NCBI GenBank assembly: GCA_900290305.1
Contig: OMOG01000778.1
Coordinates: 1-45,336 of the forward strand
Source of the DNA: Candidatus Sulfopaludibacter sp. SbA4
GTDB taxonomy: Bacteria > Acidobacteriota > Terriglobia > Bryobacterales > Bryobacteraceae
Direction of reading: 5' to 3'
Length of the DNA: 45,336 nucleotides
Shown here: piece after piece, positions 2,834-29,672 of the stretch
How positions within the stretch are numbered: position 1 is the first letter of the stretch
Layout of the letters: each line of letters opens with the position of its first letter
Made by a program: the position numbers and the translations under genes
Notes under the pieces: model-generated
What the model was told of the DNA's origin: nothing
What the model saw: only the letters and a program-made list of their open reading frames with translations
Databases searched by the model: none

Positions 2834-4410
<1,577 letters not shown>

Positions 4411-4413
4411 TGG

Positions 4414-5034
4414 CTAGCGCCTTTCGCGCAGAACCGTGGCCGACAACGCCTCGCCACGAATGGCTACCGGCTGGAATCCGAGAGGGGAGTCCGCAGCCGC
4501 GCCGAGGAGCGTCTGGACTTCGGGGAGGGAGCGATTCAGCCGAATTGCAGTTACGGGAAACATCGGAGACTTGGGGTTTGGTACTTTGCTAGTCAAAACA
4601 ATCCTTCTTTCGATTGAGTCGCGAAGCACCGCGGCTCGAGCGCCGGCATCCGCCCATGCCGGACGCACCGCCGGGAGCACCGAATCGCGGAACCACTTGA
4701 GCGCCACGAAATCATACCCCGGCCTCGATTCGGCGCGATCCAAAGTGCGAATCAACTCGGCGACGGAATCGTTGACCTCCGGCGTACTCGGCCGTACAGG
4801 ATCGGAAGCTGGAGGGCTCGCCGGCTCGTGAGCGGCTTCGAAATTGACTCGAATCTCTCCGGAACCGGCGGACCAATTCTCCACGGAGGTGTCATGCCGC
4901 TTCTTACGGCCGGTCTTCTTGTCGTGGATTGAAACGTGGGGACGAAAGCCGGCGAACTGGGAGAGATTACGAAGAGATGCGGAAAGGTTCCGCTCGATTT
5001 CAGCCTCTAGTTCCTTGATAGTGATCTCGCTCAT
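4414..5034 (-). CDS. Unrecognised 206-aa protein, candidate antitoxin partner of the PIN toxin
   Basis: Not recognised. It starts MSEITIKELEAEIERNLSA, a likely helical segment, followed by a basic patch (DKKTGRKKRHD, about residues 38-48), a Pro/Ser-rich linker (about 69-87), a helical middle region and a C-terminal end PVAIRGEALSATVLRERR. No helix-turn-helix, ribbon-helix-helix or AbrB fold is obvious. It precedes the PIN gene by 3 bases on the same strand and follows a strong promoter with an overlapping palindrome, the arrangement expected of an autoregulating antitoxin. At 206 residues it is more than twice the usual antitoxin length. AGGAG lies 10 bases before the ATG. The antitoxin role is inference from position only. 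Confidence 0.6.
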   Translation of the reverse strand: MSEITIKELEAEIERNLSASLRNLSQFAGFRPHVSIHDKKTGRKKRHDTSVENWSAGSGEIRVNFEAAHEPASPPASDPVRPSTPEVNDSVAELIRTLDRAESRPGYDFVALKWFRDSVLPAVRPAWADAGARAAVLRDSIERRIVLTSKVPNPKSPMFPVTAIRLNRSLPEVQTLLGAAADSPLGFQPVAIRGEALSATVLRERR

Positions 5035-9917: not shown

Positions 9918-12362
9918 TTACCGGAGCGCGGTCATGGGATCCAGGCGGGCGGCGCGCCTCGCCGGCAGGAAGCCCGCGACCAACGCCACCGCAATCAGCA
10001 GGAGCGCCACGGCCGCGAGCAGTCCGTAGTCGTTGGGGCCGAAGCCGAAGAGCATGGCGCGCATGGCGCGTGTGATGGCGATGGCGCCGGCGCCGCCGAG
10101 CAGGGTACTCGCGGCCACCAGCAGCGCGACCTCCTTCATCAACCCTCCGGTCACCTGCGCGCGGCCGGCGCCCAGGGCGAGGCGGATTCCGATCTCGCGG
10201 GTGCGAAGCTCCACCGCGTAGGAGATCACTCCGTAGACTCCACAACACGTCAGCGCCAGCGCCAGGGCGCCGAACGCAATCGCGAGCGATGCCATCAGCC
10301 GCTCCTGGGTCAACTGGGCATCGATGCTGTCCGCCAGGGGGCGAACACTGGCGACCACCATGTCGGGATCGAGCGCGTGCAGGGCCGCTCGCAGATTTCC
10401 GGCGGCGTGCGCGGGATCGCCGGTGGTGCGCAGAATCACCGCCGTGATGGGGGCCGCCGTGATGGGGGCCGGGGACTGCTCCATCGGCAGGTAAACGATG
10501 AAGCCGAAGGGGTCACCGGGACTGGCAAACCGAACGTCGTGGGCCACTCCCACGACGCGCCACGAACTCTGCGCATCGAAGGCATTGGCCAGCGTCACAA
10601 GGCGCCCCAGGGGGTTGGCGCCGCCGAACATCTTGCGCGCGGCGGTCTCGCCCAGGACCGCGACTTTGGGCGCGACGGCGCGATCCTCGGCGGCGATCGC
10701 CCGTCCGGCCACGATGGGGATGCCCATGGTTTCGAAGTAGTCCGCGGAAACGTGGACGATGCGGTTGTTGTCGCTCTTCTGCGCGGGACGTTCGGCGGAC
10801 GCGAGCGGGCCGGTGTGCTGGTCGCCGCCCATCGGGCCGAAGCCGGAGAAGGCCGCGGAGCGAACCCCGGGCAGGCTGTGGATGCGGTCGTACAGCGGCT
10901 GGCGCAGGGCGGCGTAGCGCGCCATCATGGTGGGGCTGAATTCCCAGGGGAGTTGCGCCATCAGCACGCGGTCGCGTTGAAAGCCGAAATCCTGGTGCCG
11001 CAGGTTCCACAGCGAGCGGGCCAGCAGGGCGGCGCCCGAAAGCAGCATCAGGGCAAGCGAAACCTGGGCCACCACCAGCACCTTGCCGAGCGCGTGGCCA
11101 TGAGCGCCCGAGGTCTGGCTGCGCCGGCCGCCTTCGAGCGCGGAGCGCAGGTCTACGCGGGTGGCCGCGAGGGCCGGCGCGATTCCGAACAGGCAGGTGG
11201 CGGCGATGGCGACAGCCGCGGTGAAGGCGAGCACGCGCCAATCGAGATCCACCGGGACGTGCCAGCTCTGGCCCTCCGCGGCCAATGCGGCCAGCGCGCG
11301 CGAGCCCCAGCGCGCCAGGGCGAGAGCCGCCGCCGATCCGAGCGCCGCAAGCAGAAGACTCTCGGTGAGCAGTTGGCGCACGACGCGTGGGCGTCCCGCG
11401 CCGAGCGCCTGGCGCACGCCGATTTCGTGGGTGCGGGCGGTGGTGCGGCCCAGCAGCAGGTTGGCGAGATTGCAGCAGGCGATCAGCAGCACCATGCCTG
11501 CCACCGCCATCAGGACGAGCAGCGGACTCTGGAAGCGGGACTGCAACAGCGCGATGCCGCGGCTGGCGGGTTCGAGCTCCAGGCGATATTCGGCGGCGCC
11601 GGCCGGGCGCTCGTCGAGCGAACGGTAGAGCGCCGCGAGGGCGGCCTGCGCCTGGCGCGTCGACACAGCGGGCCGGAGGCGCGCCATCACGGTCAACCAC
11701 GTGGCTTTGGGCCCGTTGAGCCAGTCCGTGGCCATGGCCAGCGGCGCGACGCTCATGGGCAGCCACACGTCGGGGGCGTTGCCCTGGGTCTCGCCGAAGA
11801 AGCCGGGAGGAGCCACGCCGGCGATAGTCACGACGGCCTTGTTGATGGTGAGCGGCTGGCCGAGAGCGGCGGGGCTGCGCGCGAATTCGCGGTCCCAGAA
11901 GGCATCGCTGATGATGGCCACGGGGGGCGCGGAGGCGCGGTCGTCGGAGTCGGACAGGGTGCGGCCGAAGCGCGCGGGGACGCCCAGCAACTGGAAGTAG
12001 TTGCCGCTGACCAGCACCGCGTTCACGGTGCGGGCGGGGCCGCGGCCGCGCAGGACGGCGGCATGGAGCGGATAGTCGCTTACGGCCAGCATGCCCTCGG
12101 CTACCTGTTGGCGCGCGGCCATTTCGCGGTACAAAGGATAGCTGAGGTTGAGCGGCCTGCCGTTCTCCAGCACCTGGACTTTGACGAGGCGTTGCGGGTC
12201 GCGGACGGGGAGCGAGCGGAAGGCGACGGCATCCAGCACCGTGTAGATAGCGGCGTTGGCGCCGATGCCGAGCGCCAGGGTGAGGATCGCGGCGAGGGCG
12301 AAGGCGGGGCTGTGGCGAAGTTGGCGGAGGGCGTAGGCGAGATCTTGCAACATCAAAAACAT
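9918..12362 (-). CDS. ADOP-type ABC transporter permease without prefix domain
   Basis: 814 residues. It starts directly at the first permease unit (DLAYALRQLRHSPAF, then the first helix ALAAILTLALGIGANAA) and so lacks the ~80-residue cytoplasmic prefix of its neighbour at 6863-9511. It has two MacB-type core domains and two sets of FtsX helices (about residues 20-45, 280-400, 420-450 and 690-805), ending PARRAARLDPMTALR. An alternative ATG at 12353 removes three residues. It is close in sequence to the broken ADOP pieces at 17601-18893 and 19080-19571. It runs toward the PadR gene 62 bases downstream and is divergent from the kinase, separated by only about 35 bases. The substrate is unknown. 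Confidence 0.87.
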   Translation of the reverse strand: MFLMLQDLAYALRQLRHSPAFALAAILTLALGIGANAAIYTVLDAVAFRSLPVRDPQRLVKVQVLENGRPLNLSYPLYREMAARQQVAEGMLAVSDYPLHAAVLRGRGPARTVNAVLVSGNYFQLLGVPARFGRTLSDSDDRASAPPVAIISDAFWDREFARSPAALGQPLTINKAVVTIAGVAPPGFFGETQGNAPDVWLPMSVAPLAMATDWLNGPKATWLTVMARLRPAVSTRQAQAALAALYRSLDERPAGAAEYRLELEPASRGIALLQSRFQSPLLVLMAVAGMVLLIACCNLANLLLGRTTARTHEIGVRQALGAGRPRVVRQLLTESLLLAALGSAAALALARWGSRALAALAAEGQSWHVPVDLDWRVLAFTAAVAIAATCLFGIAPALAATRVDLRSALEGGRRSQTSGAHGHALGKVLVVAQVSLALMLLSGAALLARSLWNLRHQDFGFQRDRVLMAQLPWEFSPTMMARYAALRQPLYDRIHSLPGVRSAAFSGFGPMGGDQHTGPLASAERPAQKSDNNRIVHVSADYFETMGIPIVAGRAIAAEDRAVAPKVAVLGETAARKMFGGANPLGRLVTLANAFDAQSSWRVVGVAHDVRFASPGDPFGFIVYLPMEQSPAPITAAPITAVILRTTGDPAHAAGNLRAALHALDPDMVVASVRPLADSIDAQLTQERLMASLAIAFGALALALTCCGVYGVISYAVELRTREIGIRLALGAGRAQVTGGLMKEVALLVAASTLLGGAGAIAITRAMRAMLFGFGPNDYGLLAAVALLLIAVALVAGFLPARRAARLDPMTALR

Positions 12363-12397: not shown

Positions 12398-15025
12398 ATG
12401 AACCTCACTCTCGGGACTTTTCTCGGCCCGTATGAGATCCTTGCGCCCATCGGCGCGGGTGGCATGGGAGAGGTCTACAAGGCGCGGGATACGCGGCTCA
12501 ACCGCACGGTGGCCATCAAGGTGCTGTCGGCCCATGTCGACAACCCGAAGGCACGTGAGCGATTCGACCGCGAGGCCCACACTGTATCGAGCTTGAATCA
12601 TCCGAACATCTGCGCTCTCTACGATATCGGCAACCAGGAAGGTGTCATGTACCTGGTGATGGAATATCTGGAAGGCGAGACCCTGGCGGACCGTCTGGCA
12701 CAGGGCCCTTTGGCGGTCGAGAAGGTCTTCGAATACGGCATGCAGATCGCCGACGCTCTCGACCAGGCGCACCGCCAGGGCGTGATCCACCGCGATCTGA
12801 AACCGGGCAATGTCATCATCACGAAGTCGGGAGCGAAGCTGCTGGACTTCGGGCTGGCCACCACGGTGCGCCGTCCCGATGTGTCGGACACCTCCCAGGT
12901 GCCGGCGCACACCACGACCATCGTCGGAACCTGCCAGTACATGGCGCCCGAATTGTTCGAGGGTAAAGAAGCGGACGCGCGCAGCGATATTTTCGCTTTC
13001 GGCGCGATGCTCTACGAGATGGCCACGGGCCGCCGGGCGTTCCAGGGCAAGACTCACGCCGGCATTATCGCCAGCATTCTGGAACAGGAGCCGCCGCCCA
13101 TCTCGAGCGTGCAGCTCATCATGCCCCCGGCCCTCACGCACCTGGTGCAGACCTGTCTCGCCAAGGACCCTGACGAGCGCCGCCAGACGGTCCACGACGT
13201 CCTCCTGGAGCTGAAATGGATGGCGCAGGGCTCGCAGACCGAGGTGGTGGTTCCGAACCTCACACGCCGTGCCAGCCGCACTCGCCGCGTGGGGATCGCG
13301 GCCGGCGGGCTGGTGGCCGTCACGCTGGCGTTGGGCTGGCTGTACTACCGCCGCCCGGCGGAAGAGCCGCGCATGGTCAAGATGTCCGTGCTGGCGCCCG
13401 AGAAGGCCACGTTCGTCGCGGGCAGTCTTCCCGCAATTTCATCCGATGGCCGCAAGCTGGCCTTCAGTGCCCGCACGGAAGGGCGCAATCAACTGTGGGT
13501 GCGGGACCTCGATTCGCTGGTGGCCCGCGCGCTTCCGGGAACGGAGGACGCGTCCGACCCCTTCTGGTCACCCGACGGCCGGGCAATCGCATTCTTCGCG
13601 GTGGGAAAGCTCAAGAAGGTCGAACTTGCGGGCGGCCCGCCGGTGCTGCTGTGTGACGCCCTGCAGGGCCGCGGCGGCACGTGGGGTCCGAACGGGATCG
13701 TCTTTGCACCCAACACCAGCGGGCCGCTCTACCGAATCTCGCCGGATGGCGGAAGCGCCGCGCCCGTGACCCGGCTCGACCAGTCGCGGGAAGAGATCTC
13801 TCATCGGTGGCCCTGGTGGCTGCCCGATGGCCGTCACTTCCTCTATACCGGCCGCAGCACCGACCCCGGCAAGAACGCGATCTACGTGGCCGATACTGAA
13901 TCGAGCGAGCAGCGGCGGATTCTCACCGTCAGTTCCAATGCCGCGTACGCGCCTCCCGGTTTCCTGCTGTTTGTGCGGGAGCGAACCCTGCTGGCCCAGT
14001 CGTTCGACGCCCGCCGCATGCAGCTCAGCGGCGAGCCGTTTCCGGTGGCCGAGCCGGTGGACCTGATCACGGGCAACGTGCAGGGCAGTTTTTCCGTGTC
14101 GCAGAACGGCACAGTGGCTTACTATTCGGGCGGCGCAGGCCTGAATTCGCAGATCACGTGGTTCGACCGAAGCGGAAATCCGGTGGGCAATATCGGCCCG
14201 CCCGGCAGTTACATTACGACCGCGATCTCACCGGATGGCAAGACCCTGGCGGCCGACCGGCTCGATCCGCAAACCGGAACCTACGACCTTTGGCTGTACG
14301 ACCTGGCACGCAGTACGGGTTCCCGGTTCACGACCGATCCGAGACACGACGACCATCCGGTGTGGTCCCCGGATGGAACCCGCATCGTTTTCAGCAGCGA
14401 CCGCAAAGGGCACTATGACCTGTATCAGAAGTCTGTCAACAGCGGCGAAAAGGACGAGGTGCTGTTCGAATCGCCGTTTCCCAAGTTTGCCAGCGACTGG
14501 TCCAGAGACGGGCGTTTCATTGTGTACTACCAACAGGATCCCCAAACGAAGCTGGATATCTGGCTGTTGCCGGCTTCCGGGAACCCGGGCAGCCAGAAAG
14601 CGGTTCCCTGGCTGCAGACTCAGTTCAACGAGAGTTGGGCCAAGGTGTCTCCCGACGGCCGATGGATGGCGTATACCTGCGACGAGACCGGCGCCTCGGA
14701 GGTCTACGTGCAGTCGTTTCCCACTCCCGGAGGCAAATGGAAAGTCTCCGTGGATGGCGGCAGCCGTCCGGTCTGGAGCCGCGACGGCAAAGAGCTGTTT
14801 TACATCGGTACGGAGCGCAAGCTGATGGTGGCTTCGGTGAAAGCCGGCTCCCGGTTTGCGACGCTTACACCGAGGCCGCTCTTTGCCACGCGTCTGGGCT
14901 CCGCCAGGCTTTTCGACGTCAGCCCGGACGGCCAACGCTTTCTGCTGATCAATCCGGTAGAGGAGTCGGCCACGCCGCCGATGACCGTGGTGGTCAACTG
15001 GAATGCGGGAATCCATCGGCCCTGA
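12398..15025 (+). CDS. Eukaryotic-like Ser/Thr protein kinase with PD40/TolB propeller
   Basis: 875 residues from the ATG at 12398 (GTG 12386 is possible). Kinase domain about 12-275: glycine loop GAGGMGEVYKA, Lys41 (VAIKVLS), Glu59, HRDLKPGN with catalytic Asp133, DFG at 150-152, APE at 183-185. All catalytic residues are present. One membrane helix (about 298-317, GIAAGGLVAVTLALGWLYY) anchors it. The outer part (330-875) is a WD40/PD40 propeller with repeated SPDG units such as WSPDGRAIAF, WSPDGTRIVFSSD and WSRDGKELFY, resembling TolB and probably a sensor or binding platform outside the membrane. TAGAAT 12 bases before the ATG suggests a short leader. It is not linked to a phosphatase gene here. 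Confidence 0.93.
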   Translation: MNLTLGTFLGPYEILAPIGAGGMGEVYKARDTRLNRTVAIKVLSAHVDNPKARERFDREAHTVSSLNHPNICALYDIGNQEGVMYLVMEYLEGETLADRLAQGPLAVEKVFEYGMQIADALDQAHRQGVIHRDLKPGNVIITKSGAKLLDFGLATTVRRPDVSDTSQVPAHTTTIVGTCQYMAPELFEGKEADARSDIFAFGAMLYEMATGRRAFQGKTHAGIIASILEQEPPPISSVQLIMPPALTHLVQTCLAKDPDERRQTVHDVLLELKWMAQGSQTEVVVPNLTRRASRTRRVGIAAGGLVAVTLALGWLYYRRPAEEPRMVKMSVLAPEKATFVAGSLPAISSDGRKLAFSARTEGRNQLWVRDLDSLVARALPGTEDASDPFWSPDGRAIAFFAVGKLKKVELAGGPPVLLCDALQGRGGTWGPNGIVFAPNTSGPLYRISPDGGSAAPVTRLDQSREEISHRWPWWLPDGRHFLYTGRSTDPGKNAIYVADTESSEQRRILTVSSNAAYAPPGFLLFVRERTLLAQSFDARRMQLSGEPFPVAEPVDLITGNVQGSFSVSQNGTVAYYSGGAGLNSQITWFDRSGNPVGNIGPPGSYITTAISPDGKTLAADRLDPQTGTYDLWLYDLARSTGSRFTTDPRHDDHPVWSPDGTRIVFSSDRKGHYDLYQKSVNSGEKDEVLFESPFPKFASDWSRDGRFIVYYQQDPQTKLDIWLLPASGNPGSQKAVPWLQTQFNESWAKVSPDGRWMAYTCDETGASEVYVQSFPTPGGKWKVSVDGGSRPVWSRDGKELFYIGTERKLMVASVKAGSRFATLTPRPLFATRLGSARLFDVSPDGQRFLLINPVEESATPPMTVVVNWNAGIHRP

Positions 15026-15120
15026 CGGGGCCTGCTCCTGCTGCTCTACCCCGTAAGTCATGATGTAAGGGACATTGGCCATCTGTGGTGTAGGCTCAAG
15101 GTAGACAACGCCGGAACTTC
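15026..15120. other. Intergenic spacer after the kinase
   Basis: Contains a weak stem ACGGGG/CCCCGT (15025-15054) with an 18-base loop and no T-tract. Nothing else recognised. Confidence 0.3.
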
Positions 15121-15148
15121 TTGACTCTGTGCGCTTATAGCGTATAAT
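15121..15148 (+). promoter_or_regulatory. Promoter of the HigB/HigA-like pair
   Basis: TTGACT (15121-15126), a 16-base spacer, TATAAT (15143-15148). An inverted repeat TTATA-GCG-TATAA (15135-15147) overlaps the -10 and could be the antitoxin operator. Confidence 0.7.
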
Positions 15149-15158
15149 CGAGTCTTAG

Positions 15159-15515
15159 ATGGATGCCGTCCCGATGACCGTACTGGAGACGCCGTTCTTC
15201 CTCCGAAAGGCTTCGGCTCTGCTCACTGAAGAGGAACGGGCGGAACTGGTTGTCTTTCTCGGCATGAATCCCGAGGCTGGCCCGGTGGTGCCCGAGGCCG
15301 GCGGCGTCCGCAAGGTGCGCTGGTCCGCCCAAGGAAGAGGCAAGCGCGGCGGCGTGCGCGTGATTTACTATTTCCACAGCGAGACTTTCCCGCTGTTCCT
15401 TTTGACCGTGTATGCGAAAAACCAACAGGCGAACTTGACCAAGGCGGAACGACAAGAATTCAAGAAGCTCGTTCCGCTTCTGGTCAGGACCTATGCGAAG
15501 GGCAGGAAGAAATGA
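15159..15515 (+). CDS. RelE/HigB-like toxin (type II toxin-antitoxin)
   Basis: 118 residues (114 if the ATG at 15174 is used, which would leave a longer leader). It shows the RelE/HigB-type mRNA-interferase fold: TPFFLRKASALLTEEERAEL (N-terminal helices), then KVRWSAQGRGKRGGVRVIYY, where the basic residues and aromatic pair match the conserved core, followed by FPLFLLTVYAKNQQANLT. Such toxins cut mRNA on ribosomes. Toxin-first order with the stop overlapping the antitoxin start (ATGA at 15512-15515) is characteristic of HigBA-type pairs. The family call is by pattern only. Confidence 0.85.
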   Translation: MDAVPMTVLETPFFLRKASALLTEEERAELVVFLGMNPEAGPVVPEAGGVRKVRWSAQGRGKRGGVRVIYYFHSETFPLFLLTVYAKNQQANLTKAERQEFKKLVPLLVRTYAKGRKK

Positions 15516-15850
15516 AAAAGGCAATTACATCGAAGGCCCGGGCCGGCGCTAAGCGCAGCGTCGGCCAGGAGGTCATCACCAGCTTGAAAGAAGCGATCGC
15601 CTGGGCCGGCGGTGCAAATGTCCCGGTCAGGGTGACCACCGTTCAGGTCCCAAGGATTGACGTGCGCGCTGTGCGACAGAAGCTAGGCCTGAGCCAATCG
15701 GAATTTGCTGCGAGATTTGGCTTCCAGGCGGCGACGCTGAAGAACTGGGAACAGGGCCGAACTCGACCGGATGGTCCGGCGCGTGTGCTGCTAGCCGTGA
15801 TCGCCAGTCATCCCGAGGCTGTTGAAGACGCCTTGCGCAAGGCCAGTTAA
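15512..15850 (+). CDS. XRE-family antitoxin (HigA-like)
   Basis: 112 residues with a C-terminal helix-turn-helix: IDVRAVRQKLGLSQSEFAAR, then FQAATLKNWEQGRTRPDGPA, the Cro/XRE pattern. The N-terminal 50 residues (LKEAIAWAGG and a PVRVTTVQVP segment) probably contact the toxin. It overlaps the toxin stop by 4 bases, so the two are translationally coupled. The DNA-binding domain makes autoregulation at 15135-15147 likely. It ends 20 bases before the convergent TOTE-like helicase gene. Confidence 0.88.
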   Translation: MKKAITSKARAGAKRSVGQEVITSLKEAIAWAGGANVPVRVTTVQVPRIDVRAVRQKLGLSQSEFAARFGFQAATLKNWEQGRTRPDGPARVLLAVIASHPEAVEDALRKAS

Positions 15851-15870
15851 GAGTACCGGAAGCAATCTCA

Positions 15871-17604
15871 TCAAAAGTCATCGAAACGGGCGGAAGCCAC
15901 GGCCGATTCCTTTTGCAAATCGTAGCCGATGGCCACGTAGCCCTTCAGCCGCTTCTCAAACATGCGGGCGAGCATTGGAACTTGCGTGTCGGCGTAATCG
16001 TACACCTGGACGATTCGCTTTCCATCGTGCATCCGATGCAGCCGCCCGACGTATTGTTGCAGGGTTCCTCGCCACGATATGGGAGTGGTGAGAAACAAGG
16101 TGTCTAGCCTGGAATCGTCAAAGCCCTCGCCGATGTAGCTCCCGGTCGCCAGGATGACGCGGGGAACTGCCTCTGGAATGGACGCCGGTCTTTCAGCCAT
16201 CGCCTGACGTTGCTTTTTGCCCATTCCTCCTTTCATTACGAGAACGTGTTCTATGCCAGATAGCTCCAGCGCCAATCGCTCCAAGTGCTCCTTGCGATGA
16301 GTGAGCACCAATGGCGTCCTGCCCCTCGTAACAGCATCAAGGACATCGGCGACAATCTGCCGGTTCCGGTCCGTGTCGGCTATGAGCGCCGCGATTACAT
16401 CATGGATCGTGTAATCGTCTCCGCTGGCAGCCATCCGGAAATTGGTGTGGCGCGGCAGCACGAGATGTTGGAAGGGTGACCGGGCGGTCGCTTCGCGAGC
16501 GCTCATGCTGAACCGGATAGGCCCGCACTGCATGAAAACGATCGGGTGATGGCCATCCTTCCTCGTGGGCGTCGCGGTCAGGCCGGTAACGTACTTCGCT
16601 TTGACCTGTCGCATGACCTGTTCGAAGCTGAAAGCCGAAATGTGATGGCATTCGTCAATGATGACGTGGCCGTATTCGGCGACGAAGTCCTTGACTTCGC
16701 CCTTGCGATGGAGGCTCTGGAGCAGCGCCACATCGATGAAACCGGTGCGGGCGACCTTCCCGCCGGCAATCTGTCCGATCGACTTAGCGGGAAGATCCAA
16801 AAACATGGCCAGCCGCTCGCGCCACTGGTCCAGCAATTGCTGCCGGTGTAGCAGAACCAGCGTGCTGACCTTCCGCTCGGCAATCAATTTTGACGCCACA
16901 ACGGTCTTGCCGAACGCGGTCGGCGCACAGAGCACACCATCGTCATGTTTCAAGACTTGGCGAACGGCGCCAACTTGCTCGTCACGAAGACTGCCATGGA
17001 ATTTCACGTCGATTGACGTTCCGCTATGACGCTCGTCCCGAATCGAGATCTGGACGCCATGCTCCTTCAAAAGGTCGGTGACCTCCTGGAGACAGCCGCG
17101 CGGCAGACCAATGTGCTGGGCAAACTCCTCGCCGCAGAAAATGATCCGAGGCTTGTCCCAGGTCGGCAGCCGCATCGCTTGCGTCTTATAAAAGTCCGGG
17201 TTCTGAAAGGCGGCAAGTCGAATAATGCGGTCAAGCATCGGTTCGGGCAGGCCAGCCTTGGGAACGAAGACCATATTGCCCCGCACAATCTCGACGGCGC
17301 CTGGAAAAGGCCCCTCAATCCGCTTGGCGCGGCTTTTCTTCGACGGCGGAAGCGCCCACGGTTCATCCCCGTCTCCCTCCGGGTCTGCCATCCTCACCCC
17401 TATCACCTGACCGCGCCGGGTGGCGTCTTGGACCACCCACTCAGCTTGATCGGTGCCTACCCGCTGGACCGACGCCAGCAATTTCCACTGATCTGGGTAG
17501 GCGCAGAGACTGTCATCGACGAAGACACTGTTGCCGTCTTGCCGAGGGATCCACTGTAGCGGTAGCGCGATGAGATTACCGAATCCACCCTTCTGTTCCG
17601 CTGT
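15871..17604 (-). pseudogene. TOTE conflict-system-like helicase, 5'-truncated (primase half missing)
   Basis: An open frame runs from 17604 (next to a TAA at 17605-17607) to the stop at 15871, about 577 codons; a TTG at 17481 is the first start-like codon with a long ORF, 536 residues. The helicase part has Walker A APTAFGKT (186-193 from that TTG), Walker B DECH (276-279), TAT (302-304) and the QYVGRLHR motif VI, i.e. an SF2 DEAD/DEAH helicase. The stretch upstream of 17481 reads GGFGNLIALPLQ, then GNSVFVDDSLCAYPDQW, which I recognise as the end of the archaeo-eukaryotic primase domain in TOTE conflict proteins. The primase itself is missing: the frame stops at the junction with an ADOP fragment. 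A helicase-only product might still be made, but promoter and start are lost. It belongs to the same accessory patch as the toxin-antitoxin pair. Confidence 0.75.
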
Positions 17605-18893
17605 TTACCGTGGCGGTCACTGTGGCGGCTGCCTGCCTGTTCGGCCTGGCGCCGGCGCTCGCGGCAACCCGCCTCGACCTGCACTCCGCTTTGCAGTCGC
17701 ACCGCACGCTTGGCAACGGCCGGCGGCACGCTGCGGGCCGGCTGTTCGTCGTGGCACAGGTGTCCATCTCCTTACTGCTGGTGGCCAGCGCCGCGCTGCT
17801 GGTGCGCTCGTTCTGGAACTTGCAGCACCAGGATTTCGGCTACCGGCAAGAAGGCCTGCTGATGGTCCAAATGCTCACGGATTTCGAGACCTTGCGGGCG
17901 GCCAGGGAGATCGCCGTGCAGCCGGTGTACGAGCGGATGAACGCCATCCCAGGAGTCCGTTCGGCGGCGTTGGCGGGCCTCGGACCGTTTTCCGGAATTT
18001 CCAGCACTGCCGGGATCGCGCTCCCCGACCGGCCGCCCGCGCCGGACGAGGAAGCGCGGCTCGTGAGTGTGTCCCCGCGTTTTTTCGAGACCATGGGCAT
18101 TCCGATGGTTGCGGGACGGCCGATCACCGAGGAGGATCGCGCCGGGACCGCCAAGGTCGCGGTGATCAGCGAGACCGCGGCCCGCGCGTTGTTTGGCGCT
18201 GCCAATCCGGTTGACCGCTATTTCGCCGCCGGCGCGAAGTTCGATGCGAATAAGGCGATTCGGATCGTCGGCGTGGCGCACGACATACGGTTCGCCCGTC
18301 CGCGCGATCCGTTCGAGATGGTGGTGTATCAGTCTCTGGCGCAATCCCCGATGCCGCTGACCTCGGTGGTGATGCGCACCGCGGGCGATCCGGCGTTGTT
18401 CGCGGGAGTGGCGCGGCAGGCGGTGAGCGAGTCGGTCCCCAGGCTGAAGATCGCGTCCGTCCGGCCGCTGGGTGAACTGGTGGGATCGCAGTTGGGCCAG
18501 GAGCGCATGATGGCGCTGCTCTCCGGCGCGTTCGGACTGCTGGCGCTGGTGCTGGCCAGCGTGGGCCTGTACGGTGTGATTGCCTACGGGGTGGAGCGCC
18601 GGACGCAGGAGATCGGAATCCGGCTGGCTCTGGGCGCGAGCCGCGCACAGGTTTCGGGACTGCTGCTGCGCGAGGTCGCGATGGTGCTCGGTGTGGGACT
18701 CCCGCTGGGCGCCGCGGCCACCCTGGCGCTGGGTCAATGGGTCAGGTCGATGCTGTTCGGGTTGACGCCCCACGATCCGGCGATGCTGGTCTCCGCCGCG
18801 GCGCTGCTGGCCGTGGTGGGGCTGGCCGCGGGATATCTGCCCGCACGCCGCGCCTCGCGCTTCGAGCCTACAACGGCCTTGCGACAAGAGTAA
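17601..18893 (+). pseudogene. C-terminal half of an ADOP permease
   Basis: About 430 codons on the plus strand, without a proper start. From LFTVAVTVAAACLFGLAPAL onward it aligns by eye with residues about 379-814 of the permease at 9918-12362 (TAAVAIAATCLFGIAPAL): second MacB core (VSPRFFETMGIPMVAGRPI), three FtsX helices and the end PARRASRFEPTTALRQE. The first half is absent; upstream is the broken TOTE-like gene in opposite orientation. The frame is still open, so the damage may be recent. A GTG at 17610 is a start only by chance. Confidence 0.85.
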
Positions 18894-19079
18894 GGGCCTT
18901 TAAACTAAGGAAATTAATTGCGCCAACCGCTCCCCAACGGGGTGCACGCATAGTGCCCGAAATTTGCTGCCGGCCGAGCGTTTCAAGGGACTTGGTGATG
19001 GTCTCGATACACGGTCTTGTTGATGCCTTCTTCGCCGGGGTTGATGCCTTTCTCGTCGATCTCTTTGTAGACAAGGCGT
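18894..19079. other. Unassigned filler between two ADOP fragments
   Basis: About 185 bp with lower GC at the left (AAACTAAGGAAATTAATTG). On the minus strand it extends the broken ADOP frame with basic, repetitive, non-permease residues. The only internal structure seen is GGCATCAAC repeated 27 bases apart (minus strand). It is not recognised; it may be a rearrangement insert or the scar of a lost mobile element. Confidence 0.4.
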
Positions 19080-19571
19080 GCCCTCCACCACGTTCTGGCG
19101 CCTGGCCATTTCCTGAAGCAGCGGGTAGCTGAAGGTCATGGGCTTGCCGTTGTGGTAGCCCTGGACGAGCACCAGGCACTCCGGGTCGCGGACCGGGAGC
19201 GAGCGCAGCACCACGGCGTCCAGCACGCGGAAGATCGCGGTGTTGGCGCCGATGCCGAGGGCCAGCGTCAGGACCGCAGCGGCGGCGAACCCGGGGCTCG
19301 CGCGCAACTGCCGCAGGGCATAGCGCAGGTCCCTGGCGAAGGTCTCGATCCAGGGCAGGGTACGCTGTTCGCGCCAAGCCTCCGCGATCTGCGAGACTCC
19401 GCCGAACTGCCGCCGCGCTTCGATGCGTGCCTCTGCGGGCGGCATGCCGCGGCGTTCGTACTCCGCGGCCAGCAGGTCGAGATGGCTCGCGATTTCGTCG
19501 TCTATGCGGGGCTCGGTGCGGCGGGCGAAGAGTCCCCGCAGGCGCTCCATCAGCATGCGCAAATTCGTCAT
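19080..19571 (-). pseudogene. N-terminal part of an ADOP permease, truncated
   Basis: Begins with the standard ADOP prefix (MTNLRMLMERLRGLFARR, IASHLDLLAAEYERRGM, ARRQFGG), then the first permease unit RDLRYALRQLRASPGF, helix AAAVLTLALGIGANTA, and SYPLLQEMARRQNVVEG. Similarity to the permease at 9918-12362 (…REMAARQQVAEG, residue 90) ends exactly here, at about 19080, and the frame continues in unrelated sequence to 18900. Its start overlaps the PadR stop (ATGA), so it is the remaining head of a PadR-ADOP operon. The matching tail is not contiguous: the piece at 17601-18893 is on the other strand and about 290 residues are missing between the two. Confidence 0.85.
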
Positions 19572-19903
19572 GATTCACCCTCCAGCAGCCGGTTCACCAT
19601 GGCCACCGTGCGCGACCAATTTTTGGCCTCCGCCGTCAACTGCTTGCGGCCTGCGCGCGTGATCGAATAAAACCGCGCCCGGCGATTGTTCTCGCTCGTG
19701 CCCCACTCGCTTTGGATCCAGCCTCGCTGCTCCAGCCGCAGCAGCGCTGGATAGATGGTGCCCTGGTTCAACTCCAGCGAGCCTTCGGCTACCTGCTCGA
19801 TGCGGCGCGCGATGCCGTACCCGTGGAGGGCGCTCATGGCGTCGAGCGTCTTCAGGACCATCAGGTCCAACGTGCCGTAGGGTACTTCACTCCTGTTGCC
19901 CAT
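19568..19903 (-). CDS. PadR-family transcriptional regulator
   Basis: 111-residue PadR: MGNRSEVPYGTLDLMVLKTL, HGYGIARRIEQVAEG, NQGTIYPALLRLEQRG, RRARFYSITRAG and the C-terminal helix. The start at 19903 is set by the conserved PadR N-terminus. The stop overlaps the ADOP start by 4 bases. The promoter and two related inverted repeats lie directly upstream, one overlapping the start codon, suggesting autorepression. Because its ADOP target is truncated, this regulator may now control only itself or the divergent GH20 gene. Confidence 0.93.
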   Translation of the reverse strand: MGNRSEVPYGTLDLMVLKTLDAMSALHGYGIARRIEQVAEGSLELNQGTIYPALLRLEQRGWIQSEWGTSENNRRARFYSITRAGRKQLTAEAKNWSRTVAMVNRLLEGES

Positions 19904-19908
19904 CAACA
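19894..19908. promoter_or_regulatory. Inverted repeat over the PadR start codon
   Basis: TGTTG-CCCAT-CAACA, sharing its arms with the larger repeat at 19926-19942. Candidate second PadR binding site. Confidence 0.45.
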
Positions 19909-19910
19909 AG

Positions 19911-19939
19911 AGTATCGGGCATCTTCTGTTGAAAGTCAA
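19911..19939 (-). promoter_or_regulatory. Promoter of the PadR gene
   Basis: Minus strand TTGACT (plus 19934-19939), 17-base spacer, GATACT (plus 19911-19916; 4 of 6 match to consensus). The leader would be only a few bases long. Confidence 0.5.
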
Positions 19940-19942
19940 CAG
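19926..19942. promoter_or_regulatory. Perfect inverted repeat over the PadR -35 (candidate operator)
   Basis: CTGTTGA-AAG-TCAACAG, two perfect 7-base arms, covering the -35 of the PadR promoter and lying upstream of the divergent GH20 gene. A further perfect repeat GTTGGC-AG-GCCAAC is at 19948-19961. Confidence 0.6.
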
Positions 19943-19980
19943 GAAAGGTTGGCAGGCCAACTCGCTATACACTGGAGGGG

Positions 19981-27587: not shown

Positions 27588-29672
27588 TCAGCCGCCGAAC
27601 GCCAGCCTCACTGCGTTGGACGTTTTTCCGCCGCTGGTCACCACCACGTCGACCGCGCCGCGGCCGCGCAACGCCGGCGGGATCGAGATGTTCACCTGGT
27701 CGAGCCCCGGATACGTGCTTTGCGACCCGGCAAAAATCACCGGGACGGTCACCCCGCCCACCGTGCACGTGGTGGATGACGCAGCACCGCGAATCCCCGT
27801 GCCGTACAGGCTGACGTACACGGTGGATTGATCGTCGATGGCGATGGGGACAGGGCTGCACGTTCCGCTGCTGCAATCGAAAACAGGCACCGCGGTTTGC
27901 GCGGTCTGCCCGTTTTGCACCCGGACCGCCAACGCCGCCGCGGTGTTGGTCGCGCCCAAGGAGAATAGTCCGGGCGCCGCGGCACTCACCGTCACCGCGC
28001 CGCTCACCGCCCCGATATTCACCGTCGCCGTGCCGGCTGCCACCTCGCCGGGGACCAGAAAGCTCACCTGTGACGGGCCGGCGTAGCTGAGCGCCAAGGG
28101 CTGCGTCGTTCCGCCGGCATCCGTGAGGGTCGCGGTGACGCCGGCCAGCCCCTGCACCGGAACCGGCGCCAGGCCGCTCACCACCATACCGAGCGCCTGT
28201 CCATACACCGAGGCCAGGCTGTTCCGCGCGATTTCCGGCTGACCGCCGGCCGAATTCGCCACCACCAGGCTGCCGTTGCCGAAATTGACCAGCAGCGCAC
28301 TCGCCGCGCGAACCGTGGTGCTGTATGTGCCGTGGGTCAAAGGAGTGGTTTCAAGCTGTGCCGGCAGCCAACTGCCATCTGCCCCGACCGATGCCCCGCC
28401 CAGTGTAATGCCGGTGGTCGAATCGGCCGCCGGTGCGGCCAGGCGCATGCCCAACGCCGCACTGTAGGCGCTGCCGGGTGTAATCGTGACAGCAGCGTCC
28501 TGCGCCGTGTCCTTGTCGATCACCATCAGCCGCAGCGTACCGTCGGTATCCAGTGCGCCGTACGCCGTCAGGTTCACGCCGTTCGCCGACACGTCGAGCG
28601 GCACCGTGCGGCCGCGCGCAGCGGCGCGAAACATCAGCAGTGTATAGTACAGCGGCCGCGCGGTCACCTGCGAGCCGGACACGGCGATGGGGGTGTAGTT
28701 GCCCGATCCCCCTCCGTGGAAGTTCACCCCCGCGGAAGCGCGGCCGGCCAGCGTGAACATATAGTCGCCGCCCCACAGTGCGGAGGCGAAGACATCGCTC
28801 ACCCCCTTCTCGCCGCCGTTGTAACAGGAGTTGGTCTCGGACATGCGCCATGGGAGCTTCTGGCTTTGCGCGATCTGCTGCAGCTCGGAGCCGTCGGTGT
28901 CTTCGGTGTTGCGCGCGGCGCTCCCCAGGATATGCGGAATCGACGCCACGTTGGAGGCGTTCGGATTCACCGAAGAGGGCGCCAGCGGGTAGAGATGCTG
29001 CGTGAGCAGCGCGATCCGCGATCCGAGCTGCTGCGCGAAGGTGCTGGTCCAGGTGGTGATCGAGCCTGCCGCTGCCGATCCGGTCAGCACCGCGGCCGGA
29101 GTCCGCGCCTGGATTGCGTTGGCGTAAGTGGTCCACTCCGCGATGTAGTCGCTGACCGTATAGGTGGACGGCCGCAGGCCGTTGCTGTGATAGAGGTCCG
29201 GTTCGTTGCCGATTTCCAGGCCGGAGAGGACGTCGCCGGCGGTCTGGTATACATAGGCGGCTTCGTCGGCGTCAGTGGCGGGATCTCCACCGCCGAGGTT
29301 CACCGAGAAGAGCACTCGCCATCCCACCGCGCGCGCAAAGGCGAAGGCGCGGTCGACATCGCTCGAGGTAATGATGCTCGACGAAGTGGACGGCGTGCGC
29401 TGCCCGCGCATCCAGCCCGTGAGTTTGTCCACCGAATTCCCGCCAAAACGGACCAGCCCGGGTCCAATCTGCGCCACCATGCGTTGGAACACGGCGTTCT
29501 CGGCGAGAAATCCGGTGGCGGACGTGAGCGAACCGGATTCGAAGCTGAGCCCGATGAAGTCGCCGGGGATGGCCAGGCCAGGCGTTTCCGGATGCGCCAC
29601 GATGGCGACAGCCGTTTGGGCCCAGCAGGCAGGCGCGGCGACGAACGCACAAATCCAGGCGATACGTCCCAT
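27588..29672 (-). CDS. Secreted GH79-like glycoside hydrolase with Solibacter C-terminal domain
   Basis: 694 residues. The signal peptide MGRIAWICAFVAAPACWAQ is clear. The catalytic region resembles GH79 (beta-glucuronidase/heparanase-type, TIM barrel): LVRFGGNSVDKL, the acid/base Glu157 in GLEIGNEPDLY and the probable nucleophile Glu279 in WRMSETNSCYNGG. A beta-sandwich follows to about 460. The last ~215 residues (RNSLASVYGQALG, SYAGPSQVSFLVPGEVAAGTATV, YVSLYGTGIRG, PGLDQVNISIPPALRGRG) match the TIGR03437 Solibacter C-terminal domain, probably an Ig-like export or surface unit. Likely substrates are glucuronic-acid-containing polysaccharides; this is inference from the family. Confidence 0.85.
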   Translation of the reverse strand: MGRIAWICAFVAAPACWAQTAVAIVAHPETPGLAIPGDFIGLSFESGSLTSATGFLAENAVFQRMVAQIGPGLVRFGGNSVDKLTGWMRGQRTPSTSSSIITSSDVDRAFAFARAVGWRVLFSVNLGGGDPATDADEAAYVYQTAGDVLSGLEIGNEPDLYHSNGLRPSTYTVSDYIAEWTTYANAIQARTPAAVLTGSAAAGSITTWTSTFAQQLGSRIALLTQHLYPLAPSSVNPNASNVASIPHILGSAARNTEDTDGSELQQIAQSQKLPWRMSETNSCYNGGEKGVSDVFASALWGGDYMFTLAGRASAGVNFHGGGSGNYTPIAVSGSQVTARPLYYTLLMFRAAARGRTVPLDVSANGVNLTAYGALDTDGTLRLMVIDKDTAQDAAVTITPGSAYSAALGMRLAAPAADSTTGITLGGASVGADGSWLPAQLETTPLTHGTYSTTVRAASALLVNFGNGSLVVANSAGGQPEIARNSLASVYGQALGMVVSGLAPVPVQGLAGVTATLTDAGGTTQPLALSYAGPSQVSFLVPGEVAAGTATVNIGAVSGAVTVSAAAPGLFSLGATNTAAALAVRVQNGQTAQTAVPVFDCSSGTCSPVPIAIDDQSTVYVSLYGTGIRGAASSTTCTVGGVTVPVIFAGSQSTYPGLDQVNISIPPALRGRGAVDVVVTSGGKTSNAVRLAFGG

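Follow-up and report, generated by a model that had tools for sequence, protein, structure and literature searches.

A truncated AEP primase-SF2 helicase gene abuts a broken ADOP permease gene in Candidatus Sulfopaludibacter sp. SbA4

Results

A primase-helicase remnant between a toxin-antitoxin pair and a broken permease gene

The window analysed here is a stretch of 45,336 nucleotides from Candidatus Sulfopaludibacter sp. SbA4. A minus-strand helicase frame lies at 15871-17604, and the features around it are as follows.

9918..12362, minus strand: neighbouring ADOP gene, an unbroken 814-codon frame and the closest scored paralogue of both ADOP fragments
15159..15515, plus strand: RelE-like toxin gene (PF06296, E 4.3e-9)
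15512..15850, plus strand: HTH antitoxin gene of NadS/MqsA type (PF15731, PF01381), convergent with the helicase and 20 bp from it
15871..17592, minus strand: what remains of a fused AEP primase-SF2 helicase gene, with about 50 residues of the AEP end, a linker and a complete XPB-like core (PF22548, ResIII, DEAD, alignment, model, Foldseek)
17593..17604, minus strand: open frame beyond the last homologous codon, whose TAEQ aligns with none of 31 relatives (frame and alignment)
17593..17600, no strand: junction, 8 bases belonging to neither side (primase homology ends at 17592, ADOP similarity runs from 17601)
17601..18893, plus strand: C-terminal part of an ADOP gene, profile positions 371-803 (TIGR03434, E 3.8e-125)
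18894..19079, no strand: piece of about 185 bp between the ADOP parts, GC 54%, with no convincing relative
19080..19571, minus strand: N-terminal part of an ADOP gene, a prefix domain and the first ~90 ADOP residues (TIGR03434, perm_prefix_1)
19568..19972, minus strand: PadR regulator gene, upstream of the broken ADOP gene (PF03551, E 5e-20)

The frame begins within a primase domain

The frame is open for 577 codons, with a stop codon immediately 5' of it at 17605-17607. A sequence-only reading of this DNA had recognised the end of a TOTE-type primase domain in frame ahead of the helicase, and a Pfam profile search of the translation bore this out; residues 4-54 match positions 177-227 of PF22548 (AEP-TOTE; E 1.2e-14; 54.9 bits against a cut-off of 27), which is only 51 of the 230 profile positions, and ResIII and DEAD helicase matches follow at residues ~205-348. 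When the translation was aligned with 31 relatives, chosen out of 109, GGFGNLIALPLQ stood in register with them and SYDRFFPNQDTMPKGGFGNLIALPLQ recurred in most with minor changes; homology in the window copy begins at K5 (base 17592), with divergence directly ahead of KGGFGN. PADLOC assigned the window copy to a PrimPol model (profile positions 188-275 of 276) and to helicase or restriction models.

The primase, said to be normally fused ahead, is indeed gone. Of the 109 relatives, which come from two collections with a few loci counted in both, 106 begin to align at query residue 4-6, and 99 have at least 140 further in-frame amino acids upstream (median 255). Five of the ten exceptions are contig ends (L005, L033, L044, L054, L087), and in the others (L006/L034, L024, L068, L083) the primase part is interrupted or lies in a different frame. 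The closest full-length relative, L114, is a full AEP-helicase of 827 amino acids, 69% identical to the window copy; 54 near-invariant columns ahead of the break (L114 residue 248; 27 rows) are all absent from the window copy. Within these lost columns lie D163, D165, H199 and D237 of L114, which we take to be the AEP catalytic motif residues; the window copy thus lacks the predicted catalytic motif of the PF22548 family, which precedes the break. A profile search of the source genome, which is 84% complete, returned the window copy as its single PF22548 match, and the missing primase half was ruled out elsewhere for the sequence present. The window copy is a truncated primase-helicase gene. 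Its first in-frame start codon is TTG 17481, so that residues 1-41 are possibly untranslated.

The helicase core is intact and XPB-like

The window copy contains TAFGKT, DECHH, TATPT, EGFDDSR and QYVGRLHR, which we presume to be the conserved SF2 helicase motifs, and both motifs and fold are those of an SF2 XPB-like helicase. XPB II ranked first in a PDB sequence search with the window protein; with Foldseek, XPB and TFIIH entries led (XPB II, E 1.8e-21) with modest TM-scores, and RadD matched too. The XPB chains share only 15-20% identity with the window protein and gave TM-scores by query of 0.30-0.58 (50 matches listed), and the N-terminal domains of XPB and RadD differ from those of the window family. 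An AlphaFold model (49-row alignment) had a mean pLDDT of 82; when averaged over blocks of ten residues, 6 of the 47 blocks spanning residues 91-560 fell under 80, and the nine blocks over residues 1-90 ranged from 31 to 76.

One of 125 near-invariant helicase columns is changed in the window copy, which equals the median of 116 sequences. Copies that are broken elsewhere (L151, L159, L161, L115, L083, L068) look alike, with 0 to 4 changed columns in the same comparison, so the test has little power. The absence of relaxation would also be seen in a helicase-only protein under selection or soon after a break, and the break in the window gene may be recent.

The frame is cut where an ADOP gene is cut

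The ADOP profile TIGR03434 recognises two pieces on opposite strands, positions 2-115 and 371-803 of 803; neither fragment gives the full 803-position match in one gene. The plus strand from 17601 onwards resembles, from the start of DNA similarity, an ADOP-like stretch on contig C447 of the same genome. With primase homology running to 17592 and ADOP similarity from 17601, the helicase frame is cut where the permease is cut, as had been proposed.

Among the own-genome candidates scored, the ADOP gene at 9918-12362 gave the top score with both pieces, at 52-53% amino-acid identity for the C-terminal part and 69% over 85 amino acids for the N-terminal part. This shared paralogue suggests that one gene was split and half of it inverted; in the simplest reading, the two pieces are one gene behind PadR, with its C-terminal half inverted and ~860 bp of its middle gone. 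A search of 150 genomes with one frame of the piece between them gave, beyond its own genome, only chance-level matches (E 0.2 or worse), and several frames compared with the comparison loci, the AEP N-terminal part and the toxin-antitoxin partners yielded nothing convincing. This piece is low in GC and contains an imperfect tandem repeat of 19-21 bp at 19019-19058.

The claim that one event joined the two genes is plausible and stays unproven, as an inversion and at least one deletion are needed. Comparison with related genomes gave the uninterrupted gene, as expected, and the accompanying search for a syntenic unbroken locus, carried out via the GH20 gene, gave none; an AEP-helicase was found at 0 of 11 candidate loci and an ADOP piece nearby at 4 of 11, several of the candidate contigs ending within a few kb. 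The inversion is for this reason a reconstruction. In L116, which is 75% identical to the window copy, the contig (G086:C74) ends at base 27657, seven codons past the window break point; this may be chance or a repeat-flanked spot.

Broken copies are frequent in the family

Matches at E 0.001 were obtained in 94 of 200 genomes of the same bacterial family, many of them to distant helicases only. We classed 64 family loci: 33 are full one-frame genes, 2 are full with an in-frame stop, 11 have split frames or an internal deletion, 5 lack the N-terminal part, 4 are otherwise truncated and 9 are cut by contig ends only. When the last are excluded, 22 of 55 loci are broken, at many different points, some of which may conceal sequencing errors. 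Since the census covers the 64 retrieved loci and at least 17 further pieces (identity 43% or more, mostly short) lie outside it, broken copies are undercounted.

The five loci without the N-terminal part are helicase-side remnants that start at residues 305-559 in the numbering of three reference proteins, each at a different point; the window copy starts at about residue 248 of L114. Near these five no primase piece turned up, and one of them, L194, keeps an AbiEii gene upstream. A conserved helicase-only module was rejected on these grounds, and the suggestion that the window holds a minimal helicase module is not supported; none of the five starts at the window's point. A conserved helicase-only gene with its own start near 17481, which would have spoken against a truncation, was not found among the 64 family loci.

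AbiE genes lie upstream of many intact relatives

When 47 same-strand ORFs upstream of family loci were searched against Pfam, 17 were AbiEii and 12 AbiEi_4. The ORFs had been picked by a length and GC3 rule suited to high-GC genomes, and 47 of 50 from family loci and 60 of 63 from loci elsewhere were scanned, those omitted being three further upstream and three of the near-duplicates L063 and L071. An AbiEii profile was then applied, made from 17 sequences of which 14 came out of family loci later counted; it detected a same-strand AbiEii gene no more than 2.6 kb upstream at 23 of 40 family loci, the figure for loci elsewhere being 6 of 61. In these 40 loci the start of the primase is retained and the upstream sequence exceeds 900 bp, and some of their primase-helicases are incomplete further on; for full one-frame genes with over 900 bp upstream, the count was 17 of 29. 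The entire scan yielded 41 ORF matches in 32 loci (905 kb), and none at the 11 GH20 control loci. Of the 23 AbiEii genes, those at L150, L156, L164, L179 and L186 are broken or partial, and the L151 gene, matched only weakly at E 1.5e-9, is possibly something other than AbiEii. AbiEii mostly ends at or just within the primase frame, and AbiEi often precedes it. An AbiEi-AbiEii pair directly ahead of an AEP-SF2 helicase was observed at L123:6127-7616, L124:5904-7387, L113:10716-12202 and others.

The association appears to be lasting. AbiE types, defined as clusters of AbiEii proteins, were placed on an IQ-TREE tree of 54 helicases and needed 5 changes over 37 labelled rows, compared with 15-22 when the labels were shuffled 30 times; types 2 and 3 changed once each and type 1 twice, and AbiEii was absent from 15 of the 37 rows. 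Another helicase clade (L165:10148-11188, L167:46-522) has a HATPase_c_4 (RecG C-terminal-like) plus HTH protein upstream and no AbiE, and some other clades have housekeeping-like or unnamed ORFs in that position.

The window copy groups with L116, L115, L114 and L163 (support 96/86), and AbiE was seen in none of them, L116 stopping at its contig edge. At L114:143-993, a pair encoding an AF2212-like antitoxin and a PIN toxin ends 19 bp before the primase-helicase gene; at L115 a DDE transposase adjoins the broken primase, and at L163 the upstream ORF of 160 amino acids has no Pfam match. In the window itself, no AbiE homologue was detected at E below 0.5 or by profile, and the DNA upstream of the helicase frame is ADOP, so that the AbiEii gene found upstream on the same strand in other members has no counterpart there.

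The RelE/HTH pair and base composition

The RelE-like and HTH genes downstream overlap by 4 bp and have profile matches over the cut-off, as expected of a type II toxin-antitoxin pair; the HTH protein scored 57.5 bits with NF041265 (NadS), slightly under that model's cut-off of 60. The pair and the helicase have a GC3 of 0.67-0.73; the kinase gene reaches 0.80, and GH20 and the ADOP genes 0.84-0.90. The low values suggest that both the pair and the helicase may be acquired, and the primase-helicase gene was probably acquired horizontally; low GC is not unique to it, as 15 of 219 helicase-sized windows are equal or lower.

Discussion

A relic of a fused primase-helicase

We consider it very probable that the window copy is what a rearrangement left of a gene for a fused AEP primase and SF2 helicase, namely its 3' part, and that it is now a relic. 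The present order would follow from an inversion, one of whose breakpoints lay in the primase region and the other in the ADOP gene, together with deletion of the ADOP middle and of the primase 5' part and whatever preceded it. With the primase and its own 5' end missing, the gene would have lost its original job. An internal start could nevertheless give a helicase of at most 536 residues.

Such a product might be kept and used as a stand-alone XPB-like protein, started for instance at ATG 17391 or TTG 17481. The frame is free of stops over 536-577 codons, the helicase motifs are retained, a single one of the 125 conserved columns has changed, the core is modelled with high confidence, and a GGTGA/GAGG-like stretch, judged by eye, stands ahead of ATG 17391. 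Yet no such helicase-only gene is conserved at any of the 64 family loci, those without an N-terminal part beginning elsewhere; moreover, there is no ATG ahead of residue 72, residues 1-90 are poorly modelled, and the original upstream sequence has been lost, which together leave a functional helicase-only protein rather doubtful. Another alternative is a false join of two unrelated pieces. The assembly is fragmented and probably metagenome-derived (790 contigs, 4% contaminated, besides its incompleteness), and the other primase half was not found in it. Against this, a 301-base query across the junction was compared with the genome, and among the 40 of 91 candidates that were scored the matches other than the query itself were three stretches on the ADOP side (43-86 bases, 79-84%), none of which reaches the helicase side; no shared repeat would thus account for a misjoin. 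The ADOP genes flanking the junction are mutual highest-scoring matches among the candidates scored, and 14800-19500 contains no N. We regard a misjoin as unlikely and give it very little weight.

The helicase and the adjacent toxin-antitoxin pair might alternatively belong to one defence unit, in which RelE/HTH would have replaced an AbiE pair. The two share a similarly low GC3 and are separated by 20 bp, and at L113 an HTH protein 75% identical to that of the window is encoded downstream of a full AEP-helicase. The window pair is convergent with the helicase, however, and not upstream of it, and the L113 HTH gene shares the strand of its helicase and comes without RelE. Among 173 AEP-helicase locus entries, which contain duplicates and short flanks, a close HTH homologue was found at one place only (L011/L113), with a weak match at L099, and a RelE of the window type at none. 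The source genome has two more RelE-HTH pairs, at L127 (C498) and L129 (C9), with 37% and 48% identity for RelE and 70% and 66% for HTH. Being nearly absent beside AEP-helicases and having further pairs elsewhere in its own genome, RelE/HTH is best read as a coincidental neighbour, and a single system of this kind is highly improbable. The preferred reading remains that of a rearranged relic.

A possible defence operon in intact members

The window copy belongs to a known domain family and is in itself an ordinary relic of little consequence, its gene being frequently broken in this bacterial family. Its value is as a pointer, since in the same family AbiE-type toxin-antitoxin genes and an AEP primase-SF2 helicase show a lasting pairing. 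In intact relatives, foreign DNA is the most likely target of the protein; the helicase would open or travel along DNA, the primase would prime synthesis on it, and the two would often be coupled to an upstream toxin-antitoxin pair. We tentatively propose that the intact members may form an unrecognised defence operon, a possibility to which we lend real but less than even credence. The operon would join a fused primase-helicase, which would sense or process the DNA of an invader, to a toxin-antitoxin pair (AbiEi-AbiEii of several lineages, VapBC-like, possibly others). The killing arm would be the toxin, the partner would be exchangeable, and the window would hold what was left after joint loss of the upstream part and the primase.

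AbiE as known is a two-gene system. The type IV AbiE toxin-antitoxin resembles the operons described here in the AbiEii genes upstream of many family loci and differs from the window, which has no AbiE gene. AbiE is described as acting on an unknown cellular target (PMC12988326); if the operon is a defence system, it would offer AbiE a candidate partner. No paper linking AbiE to a primase-helicase was found by title or start of abstract, in a searched literature that most subscription journals lie outside.

Relation to TOTE and other primase-helicases

The sequence-only reading had named the gene a TOTE conflict-system gene, and of this only the domain family stands; what the two have in common, by Pfam name, is the primase domain family. 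TOTE is spelled out as TPR, OB, TBP, Effector (PMC12458937). TBP (PF00352) was detected in 0 of 34 genomes with the helicase family and in 4 of 14 controls, a search that a very divergent TBP could escape. TPR, OB or TBP families were likewise absent from the 20 families represented in the 47 upstream ORFs of family loci; at the loci elsewhere, where 60 ORFs were scanned, the listing covered 25 of 82 families. Fused AEP-SF2 helicases with PF22548 share frame order and helicase core with the window copy, the nearest relatives at 74-75% identity, and differ from it in that the window keeps only the final part of the primase domain. As far as the description of Thermus ICETh2 goes, a primase-polymerase is encoded there with a putative helicase (PMC7693054); the likeness is one of description, the two being placed alongside each other and not described as fused (PMC7693054).

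Other toxin genes are present in the source genome. It has eight AbiEii matches, none within the window. PIN matches lie on C14 and C788 and, within the window, at 3967-4407; no match of either kind was tied to the broken primase-helicase gene. The window PIN-domain gene (3955-4410, minus strand) is 36% identical to the PIN protein of L114 and lies behind an ORF at 4414-5034 (minus strand) with no Pfam match; 3955-5034 is perhaps another toxin-antitoxin pair.
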